From the NCBI GenBank assembly GCA_021813445.1, contig JAKAKP010000103.1, forward strand, positions 1 through 46,385: a stretch of DNA of 46,385 bases. Direction: 5' to 3'. The position numbers were made by a program, and so were the translations under genes. Of the stretch, positions 6,035 to 38,334 are shown in pieces. Below the pieces are notes generated by a model that saw only the letters and a program-made list of their open reading frames with translations, made no database searches and was not told the origin of the DNA. Numbering within the stretch: the stretch's first letter is position 1; every line of letters starts with the position of its first letter. This DNA is from Deltaproteobacteria bacterium. Lineage in GTDB: Bacteria > Desulfobacterota > Desulfobaccia > Desulfobaccales > 0-14-0-80-60-11.

Positions 6035-6171
6035 AATAGAAGCCATTAAAAAAGCTCAATTATCCTAATTTGTCATTCTGAGCGCAGCGAAGAATCTCGT
6101 GTTTTCAAGGCGTTGAGATCCTTCACTGCGTTCAGGATGACAGAAAAAGAGGTCTTGAAATGGCTTCTATT
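6035..6171. repeat. Intact copy of a 137-bp MITE-like repeat
   Basis: It is bounded by 13-bp perfect terminal inverted repeats (AATAGAAGCCATT). Inside, a second imperfect inverted pair reads TGTCATTCTGAGCGCAGCG and ATCCTTCACTGCGTTCAGGA. A second copy, split by an insertion, lies at 35012-35340, and a half-copy lies at 6816-6862. The rest of the gap 5857-6201 holds a CCCCCTC/GAGGGG palindrome near 5971-5999 and no gene. Confidence 0.8.
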
Positions 6172-6201: not shown

Positions 6202-6714
6202 TCATTTCTCGACGAGCTTATTGCCAACCAGAGTATAAGTAGCGATCTTCGGCACCGTGGGGCAGCAGGCCGGGTCTTTGGGGCCATGGGTCACCATATC
6301 CACGATGATTTTTCCCGATTCGATACGTACGGAATTTATCTTGATTCTATCTTCCAAATCCACCGGCGCGGTATTTTTGAGCTGGCCGTGGTCATTGAGC
6401 ACGGCGCAGAGCATGACAAAAAATCCCGACCCCCCGGTGTTATAACCATAGATAACGGCCGCATCTTGGGATTGCTTATGGGAGAGATGGCCCAGCACTA
6501 CGTCTACAATGCCGACATATAAAAAATTATCCGGATCTTGCCGCTTAAATTCGCCATTATGGAGCTGCACCCATTCGCCCTGGTCCGGGTTTTCCCAGGA
6601 GGGAATGAAGTATCTGCCGTTTTTGAGTTGATTAACGCTTAATTCTGCGGCGCTGACTGGAGAAATCAGGGCAAAGAAAAAGATGCTCAATAATATTGAC
6701 AAGGTCCTGATCAT
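6202..6714 (-). CDS. Exported protein of unknown function
   Basis: Predicted 170-residue secreted or periplasmic protein. The chosen start (MIRTLSILLSIFFFALIS) opens a clear Sec signal peptide with a likely cleavage after PVSA; an upstream in-frame Met at 6807 would bury that signal and is disfavoured, though neither start has a strong ribosome site. The mature part has no motif I recognise. It includes a Gly-rich YGYNTGGSGFF stretch, an acidic VDLEDRIKINS region and a Cys-Cys pair (DPACCPTVPK) near the C terminus. G+C is lower than in core genes nearby, and repeats flank it on both sides, so it may be acquired. Confidence 0.65.
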   Translation of the reverse strand: MIRTLSILLSIFFFALISPVSAAELSVNQLKNGRYFIPSWENPDQGEWVQLHNGEFKRQDPDNFLYVGIVDVVLGHLSHKQSQDAAVIYGYNTGGSGFFVMLCAVLNDHGQLKNTAPVDLEDRIKINSVRIESGKIIVDMVTHGPKDPACCPTVPKIATYTLVGNKLVEK

Positions 6715-6815
6715 CGATGAATTGACCCAAGTATATCGGTACCGGCAAAGTGATATGATTTCAAGGTTGCAATCGGTTAGCAGGGACGACATGAATGATT
6801 GCAACATGCTGAAAA

Positions 6816-6947
6816 TACGAGATTCTTCACTGCGCTACGCTCCGTTCAGAATGACAGATTAGGAGAGTTTAGTTTTGGCAACGACTTTGAGATGCCGGCA
6901 GGCGTGGCCTGCCCCATCATTTTGATCCCTGGCCCCTGATCCCTGAA
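6816..6947. repeat. Repeat remnants between the exported-protein gene and pyrC
   Basis: 6816-6862 is a degenerate half of the 6035-6171 element (GATTCTTCACTGCG...TTCAGAATGACA). 6925-6946 holds TGATCCCTGGCCCCTGATCC, which recurs in the opposite orientation at about 32415-32435. There is no open frame of note. Confidence 0.6.
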
Positions 6948-20555: not shown

Positions 20556-20735
20556 CAGTGAGCAGTAAGCAATTAAAAAAACGGTTTCGAAATGGTCTTG
20601 TTTTTTGCTGCTCACTGTCCTGAAAAGTTCAAAGTTCAAGGTTCAAAGTTCAATGTTAACTGCCGGTAACTTTTCATAATTTACGGGTGAGCTAAGAGCT
20701 CATGAACAACTGTTTACTGCTTACAGCTCACTAAT
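20556..20735. repeat. Composite of two junk-like repeat families
   Basis: 20562-20580 (AAGCAGTGAGCAGTAAGC) and 20712-20731 (TGTTTACTGCTTACAGCTCA) form an imperfect inverted pair. Between them, 20631-20656 carries tandem GTTCAAAGTTCAAGGTTCAA units of the type also seen at 36736-36812 and 25786-25820. There is no gene. Confidence 0.7.
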
Positions 20736-23379: not shown

Positions 23380-23395
23380 AGATTTAATTCTTCCT

Positions 23396-23560
23396 CGTTC
23401 CCAAGCTTAGCTTGGGAACGCCTTTGTCCGCCAAGCTCAGCTTGGCGAGCATTCCCGTTCCCAAGTGCAACTTGGGAACGAGAATGCTCGGTGGCGCAGC
23501 CTTTCCGGGCGGCGCCGCAAAGCCGCCCAGGCTGGAAAGCCTGGGCTACCAAAGAATCAA
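23396..23560. repeat. Array of palindromes between thiH and the Sel1 gene
   Basis: In order: 23396-23420 and 23456-23480 (arms CGTTCCCAAG/CTTGGGAACG), 23430-23446 (GCCAAGCT/AGCTTGGC), a wider GCATTC/GAATGC frame at 23449-23487, then GGGCGGC/GCCGCCC and AGGCTGGAAAGCCT near 23507-23545. It matches the cluster at 1558-1753. Nothing coding is seen. Confidence 0.8.
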
Positions 23561-25764: not shown

Positions 25765-25785
25765 TATTGACTCATTAATGATGAA

Positions 25786-25958
25786 GTTCCAAGTTTCTGG
25801 TTCAAAGTTCCAAGTTTAAGGCCCCGGTTCACAGACCTTGCGGGTGAGCCGGAGACTCCTGAATAATTCGGGGCATTTTATAATCCCCCCCCCTGACCCC
25901 CCCCTTTATAAAAGGGGGGAAATTCCTTCTGGTTTTTGCCTTTACTACTAACTGCTTA
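25786..25958. repeat. Repeat-filled gap between thiF-like gene and thiG
   Basis: 25786-25820 carries degenerate GTTCAAAGTTCCAAGTTT units. 25884-25922 is a C-run/G-run palindrome (CCCCCCCTTTATAAAAGGGGGG). 25943-25965 reads ACTAACTGCTTACTGCTCAC, matching 20562-20580 in the opposite sense. There is no gene. Confidence 0.65.
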
Positions 25959-33290: not shown

Positions 33291-33352
33291 TGTAGGGGCG
33301 AACCTTGTGTTCGCCCAGCAGCATCGGGGCGAACACAAGGTTCGCCCCTACA
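33291..33352. repeat. Perfect 26-bp inverted repeat with 10-base loop
   Basis: The left arm 33291-33316 opens TGTAGGGGCGAACC and is exactly complementary to 33327-33352. The motif family (TAGGGGCGAAC/GTTCGCCC) recurs at 42134-42184 and, in the GGGGCGGACCCATGTG variant, at 38192-38334 and 35125-35252. It lies between mazG and cvpA. Confidence 0.85.
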
Positions 33353-34939: not shown

Positions 34940-35095
34940 CTGGCGGGGACCCCAAGACGTGTGTCCCTGCCCTCAGATCCCTGTCCGGTTCTCCGCCATC
35001 TGCCAAGTCTTCCTAAGAAGCCATTTTAAAGCCTCAATTATCCTAAATTTGTCATTCTGAGCGCAGCGAAGAATCTCGTATTTCCAAGGCGTTGA

Positions 35096-35283
35096 TACCG
35101 AGTTGCAATCTATCGGCAATTTTTGGGGCGGACCCATGTGTCCGCCCCTGCGTCCGCAAATACAACTGCGTTAATTCTATGATCATATTCATCTTTAGAG
35201 ACTGAAGGATTGTGTTTTTACGAGCGTCCCGGGGGCACACATGGTGCCCCCACAAATCCACGTCGTTAGATTGCAACTCGGTA
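35096..35283. mobile_element. 188-bp non-coding insertion element with 17-bp terminal inverted repeats
   Basis: The ends are TACCGAGTTGCAATCTA and its exact reverse complement. The element is flanked by TGA on both sides, a 3-bp duplication shown by comparison with the uninterrupted copy at 6035-6171. It carries no ORF, so it would need a transposase supplied in trans. Inside it lies a third repeat (35125-35252). Confidence 0.75.
35125..35252. repeat. Inner repeat of the GGGGCGGACCCATGTG family
   Basis: The left end GGGGCGGACCCATGTGTCC and right end GGGGGCACACATGGTGCCCC are each small hairpins and are roughly inverse to one another. The copy at 38192-38334 shares both ends and internal GTGTTTTTACGAGCGTC/GTGTCTTTGCGAACGTC-like words. 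Confidence 0.7.
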
Positions 35284-35476
35284 TGAGATCCTTCACTGCG
35301 TTCAGGATGACAGAAAGAGAGACTTTGAAATGGCTTTAGGCGTATTATTTGGCCTGGAGTAAAAAAAGGGGGGGGACAGGAGCGGGGGCCCCAGGGGTGC
35401 AGTTGCTAACGGGTCAGGAATTGGGGGGAGATGGGGGAGGGGTTACCAGCCCGTGGCCTCCTCCCCCAAGTTTCTG

Positions 35477-36712: not shown

Positions 36713-36735
36713 CTGCCAACCTCTGCTTCTGTAAG

Positions 36736-36812
36736 TTTAAGGTTCAAAGTTCAAGGTTCAAAGTCATTGAAGGGTCTTAACCTTGAACTTTGAACCTTGA
36801 ACCTTGAACTTT
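36736..36812. repeat. Hairpin of tandem GTTCAA units
   Basis: Direct units of AAGGTTCAAAGTTC (36739-36764) face their inverse, CTTGAACTTTGAACC (36781-36811), around a short spacer. Shorter relatives lie at 20631-20656 and 25786-25820. It separates M20 from methylmalonyl-CoA epimerase. Confidence 0.75.
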
Positions 36813-38191: not shown

Positions 38192-38334
38192 CGTAGGGGC
38201 GGACCCATGTGTCCGCCCGGGCGATCGCAAATATCATAGCATCTTTAATTACATGGGCGTAATCCATATTGGAGTGTTGGCAGGTTGTGTCTTTGCGAAC
38301 GTCAGGGGGGGCACACATGGGTGCCCCCCTACGG
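38192..38334. repeat. MITE-like repeat with hairpin ends
   Basis: The ends read CGTAGGGGCGGACCCATGTG and, inverted, CGTAGGGGGGCACCCATGTG. An inner inverted pair (ATCGCAAA/TTTGCGAAC) is also present. A second copy is nested at 35125-35252. It carries no ORF. Confidence 0.75.

Follow-up and report, generated by a model that had tools for sequence, protein, structure and literature searches.

A gene-less, REP-cored element probably moved by an IS630-type transposase with duplication of a 3-bp TNA target

Results

A 188-bp element at positions 35096-35283 (plus strand) of the window, by which we mean the whole 46,385-nucleotide stretch of DNA analyzed here, is very probably a gene-less MITE with a REP core that was moved in trans by a transposase from a branch of the IS630 family, with duplication of TNA rather than TA at the target. 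The sequence-based part of this reading comprises the ends of the element, its copy number, one empty site, the TNA duplications of both the MITEs and their autonomous relatives, and the membership of those relatives in the IS630 family.

The ends of the element, TACCGAGTTGCAATCTA on the left (35096-35112, plus strand) and TAGATTGCAACTCGGTA on the right (35267-35283, minus strand), form a perfect 17-bp inverted repeat, and the element lies between two copies of TGA, at 35093-35095 and 35284-35286. It interrupts an outer element, a MITE with GAAGCC ends, whose left part, first TGA included, spans 35016-35095 and whose right part spans 35287-35336 (both plus strand, both delimited by alignment to an intact copy). 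A TA stands beside the left end of the outer element at 35014-35015, in the context CTA, and another beside its right end at 35337-35338, in the context TAG; TA is also the consensus flank of the outer copies. The intact copy at 6039-6167 (plus strand), 129 bp long and with TA on each side, represents the empty site. When the 188 bp and one TGA are removed from the interrupted copy, the joined sequence shares 119 of 130 positions (92%) with 6039-6167 straight across the junction, where the empty site has a single TGA and no TA. The joined outer flanks at 35 kb also align with many further copies of the outer repeat. Judged from this alignment, a single insertion is demonstrated at the locus, that of the 188-bp element into the outer repeat, and the outer element came first and the 188-bp element second. 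The preliminary description of this DNA had proposed the 188-bp element with its perfect 17-bp ends and duplicated TGA, and had taken the intact repeat for the pre-insertion site; its coordinates and its reading of the sequence were right.

No ORF of at least 100 amino acids in the window's ORF list overlaps 35096-35283, and the only known RNA families represented in the window are two tRNAs. As a single strand, the 188-bp sequence folds with a z score of -7.3 relative to shuffled sequences.

The window's genome (4.18 Mb in 166 contigs) contains 70 matches to the 188-bp element, which was matched in 8 of 59 genomes searched, its own included. From 92 first-look candidates in its own genome, 40 places were scored. 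Both ends are present in 25 of the 30 loci fetched from this genome. An exact 3-bp duplication flanks 14 of the 25, among them every one of the nine best-conserved copies (TGA, TTA, TCA, TGA, TAA, TAA, TCA, TGA and TAA). In a wider set, drawn from this genome and its relatives, 34 of 49 elements with both ends are flanked by an exact 3-bp duplication, and duplications in the family are always or nearly always TNA. Identical flanks at this frequency have a binomial probability of ~5e-50 at a chance of 1/64 per copy, and of ~8e-11 with the middle base alone counted as free. An exact duplication is absent from the other 15 elements, several of which keep the T and the A and differ at the middle base (TGA/TTA, TAA/TTA), a mismatch that could have arisen by recombination between copies or by decay. 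Copies with matched T and A and an unlike middle base are L010, L012, L017, L021 and L092.

A 119-bp subfamily, with TACCAAGTCGCAATCAAA as its ends, occurs in related genomes. In one of these, G004, its near-identical copies mostly show clean TNA duplications, which suggests that these copies moved recently. The earlier claim that a short ORF-less element moves is thus upheld both by the empty-site alignment and by the 3-bp duplications (TTA, TCA, TAA and TGA) that it had said should be sought in other copies. It had also named differing ends, or a lack of duplications, as grounds for abandoning that claim; the ends do vary by subfamily (TACCGAGTTGCAATCTA, TACCAAGTCGCAATCAAA and TACCAAGTTGCCATCTAA, the last being those of the resident insertion sequence described below), but a 3-bp duplication accompanies all of them. 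When the flanks of the 49 copies were joined and searched, the window case was the sole clear junction-spanning match and a second match was weak, at 75% (L115); one true empty site was read. As is expected of a MITE, the 188-bp element, classed here as an A-type TNA MITE, is short, non-coding and multicopy, with 17-bp terminal inverted repeats (TIRs), a target duplication and an empty site. A broken copy of it also lies within an outer repeat on the MAG contig JAKAGH010000263.1.

In 43 of the 49 copies, spread over several genomes, a pair of GTAG-tagged REP hairpins in inverted orientation, as defines a REPIN, sits a little inward of the TIRs. The window copy is one of the six that deviate, as both of its tags have decayed: the left hairpin (35125-35148, plus strand) has a degraded GTAG, and the right hairpin (35231-35251, minus strand) has lost its CTAC. 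Since the pair occupies the same position inside the ends in 43 of 49 copies, the REP pair is a built-in core that was present before the window copy jumped. Three successive insertions are rejected on the same grounds, and of the three-level nest originally described, the entry of the 188-bp element into the outer repeat stands and the arrival of the REP pair as a separate insertion does not. The third repeat family that had been placed near 38192-38334 was found at 38193-38332 (plus strand) as a free-standing long REP pair, GTAG...CTAC, which belongs with the core of the 188-bp element in one family and has no TIRs visible around it. A short free-standing REP pair, a perfect inverted GTAG doublet, lies at 33292-33351 (plus strand).

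Elsewhere in the genome, by the lists used, 36 of 73 separate REP places lie in end-bounded elements and 37 lie outside them; at least 4 of these 37 (L266, L268, L269 and L270, from 20 of the 37 that were read) have decayed ends. The same genome has five Y1_Tnp matches, which are RAYT-like. One of them, L160, is a 170-amino-acid Y1_Tnp gene with GTAG pairs on both sides that differ slightly in sequence from the inner REP, and another, the weak match at L264, has REPs of the inner type scattered through it; no such hairpin was seen in the 3 kb read at L155 or at L167. On these sequence similarities, the REP core is common to a RAYT/REPIN-like population, yet here it travels inside IS630-type ends. 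At L264 (G000:C25:12900-15600), a REP lies within a reading frame that links the Y1_Tnp-like stretch to a UPF0102 domain.

Many contig ends of the window's genome carry what appears to be a multicopy insertion sequence in collapsed form, whose ends are TACCAAGTTGCCATCTAA, and about 60 bp inward from one such end is an ORF beginning MGKVTKCIAHLSKEE. The first 18 positions of the resident end and the MITE end are equal at 16 and differ at two. A flank-free search found 38 resident ends, and TNA precedes TACC in all 30 of the loci that were read (TTA in 12, TAA in 10, TCA in 5 and TGA in 3). No intact copy is assembled in this genome, from whose assembly the middle of the gene is missing, and a PF13358 search of the genome gave no match. 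The preliminary description had called for a transposase gene with matching ends; this genome contains an insertion sequence whose ends are closely similar, but one with ends exactly matching those of the 188-bp element was not found. A second nest is seen at a contig break (L218, G000:C68:1-214), where a copy of the 188-bp element contains an end of the resident IS630-type insertion sequence.

Relatives of the resident transposase were found by a phylum-wide search in 25 of 395 genomes, the window's own included. Six autonomous copies have clear end pairs and make up the count given here; most other loci are cut by contig ends or have no credible pair, and L255 and L256 were left out. Exact TNA duplications flank four of the six (TCA/TCA in G234, TTA/TTA in G244, TAA/TAA in G394 and TGA/TGA in G295). 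The remaining two, TAA/TTA in G046 and TGA/TAC in the decayed copy of G018, have no exact duplication, so that the 2-bp TA duplication of IS630 is seen in none of the six. The G018 copy, full-length yet decayed, has an HTH_33 ORF and a DDE_3 ORF, each a partial match to the IS630 model. In the other five, the second ORF (ORFB) scores above the cut-off of NF033545 (IS630) in every case, and above that of PF13358 (DDE_3) in every case as well. A search of solved structures returned a single marginal match, to the Sleeping Beauty transposase (E 0.08). The autonomous copies have two ORFs that overlap near a shared KK, which makes it likely that a frameshift joins them. On the sequence of their transposase, the sole ground on which they are placed, these autonomous relatives are a variant of IS630. 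A different IS630 copy, at G004:C12 (L195), was considered as the partner of the C-type MITEs and rejected: its own ends are TAGCG, and a C-type MITE adjoins it.

The outer repeat has TIRs GAAGCCATTTCAAAACC and at least 40 copies. Of 30 loci, 14 have TA at either end, and the commonest neighbors are C before and G after. These ends and flanks give the outer repeat the look of a classical IS630 MITE of the TA/CTAG type. A 1991 paper on IS630 by Tenzen and Ohtsubo reportedly names a CTAG preference in its title, and the flank pattern of the outer repeat fits such a preference. Of 26 genomes searched for the end pattern of the outer repeat, 15 have it, the window's own among them. No autonomous partner was found among 20 TIR loci scanned in this and related genomes, with ORFs inspected at L173, L182 and L188.

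Discussion

TA duplication counts as a hallmark of the IS630/Tc1-mariner superfamily. PMC2170065 describes insertion of IS630 and Tc1/mariner elements at TA with duplication of TA, and PMC6352166 tabulates the IS630 duplication length as 2 bp. If the 188-bp element were an ordinary IS630 MITE of this kind, its terminal TA..TA would be the duplication and the outer TNA a target preference only. Elements of the family do begin and end with TA, and other IS630 copies from the same genus (L193-L195) have flanks consistent with TA. However, the empty site, with its one TGA, lacks that terminal TA, which is therefore not the duplication, and the middle base agrees between the two sides far more often than a free base should; we regard this explanation as improbable. 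The filled sites alone fit the partition TN|ATACC, with a 1-bp duplication at a TNA target and an element-borne A and T, as well as they fit TNA|TACC.

Duplication of 3 bp at TNA is typical of the IS1031 group of IS5, whose transposase is of another family than that of IS630. It is conceivable that a transposase of this sort moves the MITEs and that the resident IS630-type sequence resembles them in its ends only, but in both the window's genome and G018 the ORF beside the similar ends is of IS630 type, and autonomous IS630 copies bear the same TNA duplications, leaving this possibility even less probable. We assign the lowest probability of all to movement of the whole by a RAYT, with the REP core rather than the TIRs as the mobile unit: the genome does hold both Y1_Tnp matches and free REP pairs, but the boundaries and the duplications lie at the TIRs, outside the REPs, and the window copy has perfect TIRs and has lost both GTAG tags, although these may have decayed after insertion. 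Movement by a TNA-duplicating IS630 transposase is the reading that we prefer, against which stand the 15 of 49 MITE copies and the two of six autonomous copies that have no exact duplication, the failure to find an assembled intact copy of the resident insertion sequence, its two end differences from the MITE, and the single empty site.

Under the preferred mechanism, an IS630-family transposase acting in trans would recognize the inverted ends; the target here was a TGA within an older MITE of the TA type. The transposase would join the ends of the element to target strands 3 bp apart at TNA, and repair of the gaps would leave TNA duplicated. With TNA as the duplicated unit and the terminal TA excluded from it, we propose a 3-bp stagger, which would be common to the MITE and to its branch of transposases. 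The identity of the mover and the role of this stagger as the cause are what we infer; the mover would be the resident insertion sequence or a sibling with still closer ends. A broader proposal, which we offer tentatively and hold to be possible rather than probable, is that a branch of IS630/Tc1-mariner has come to use a 3-bp stagger (TNA) in place of the 2-bp one (TA), and that its MITEs carry a double address, IS630-type ends and a RAYT-addressable REP pair, such that two unrelated transposases could spread them.

The autonomous relatives resemble known members of the IS630 family, such as ISY100, in a DDE_3 transposase above the IS630 cut-off, short inverted ends, a length of ~1.1 kb and a target bounded by T and A; they differ in duplicating 3-bp TNA instead of 2-bp TA and in having two overlapping ORFs that meet near a KK run. 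The outer 129-bp repeat, with its TIRs, its mostly TA flanks and its C before and G after, is like the IS630-derived MITEs of the TA/CTAG type, whereas the 188-bp element has TNA. The core of the 188-bp element, inverted GTAG-tagged hairpins in a genome that also has free pairs and RAYT-like genes, is like REPINs or BIMEs with their RAYTs, but this pair is enclosed by IS630-type TIRs and has spread as part of that element.

The locus is well explained as insertion of a MITE, and the surprise lies in an IS630 lineage that duplicates TNA. We found no description of TNA duplication in IS630 in the literature searched, and for a REP pair inside a MITE the literature covered papers on REPINs and on MITEs, including PMC3116915, PMC3733652 and PMC10969869. 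ISfinder lies outside this literature and database scope, so a TNA-duplicating IS630 branch with MITEs that have REPIN-like cores is new only provisionally. If such a branch is real, neither the stagger nor the target of IS630/Tc1-mariner transposases is fixed, and annotators who take TA for granted would place the ends of its members 2 bp off. MITEs and REPINs, two classes of short bacterial repeat, would then be joined in one composite element.

Other repeats in the window

A partial inverted core of the outer repeat, 80% identical over 45 bp and without ends, lies at 6792-6836, at the start of the ORF at 6202-6807 (minus strand). Dispersed runs of a AAGTTCAAAGTTCAAGGTTC-like short-unit repeat occur at 20625-20664, 25784-25823 and 36726-36812. 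Another repeat family of the window consists of palindromes of the form GTTCCCAAGT..ACTTGGGAAC, present as inverted pairs at 1601-1756 and 23394-23482.
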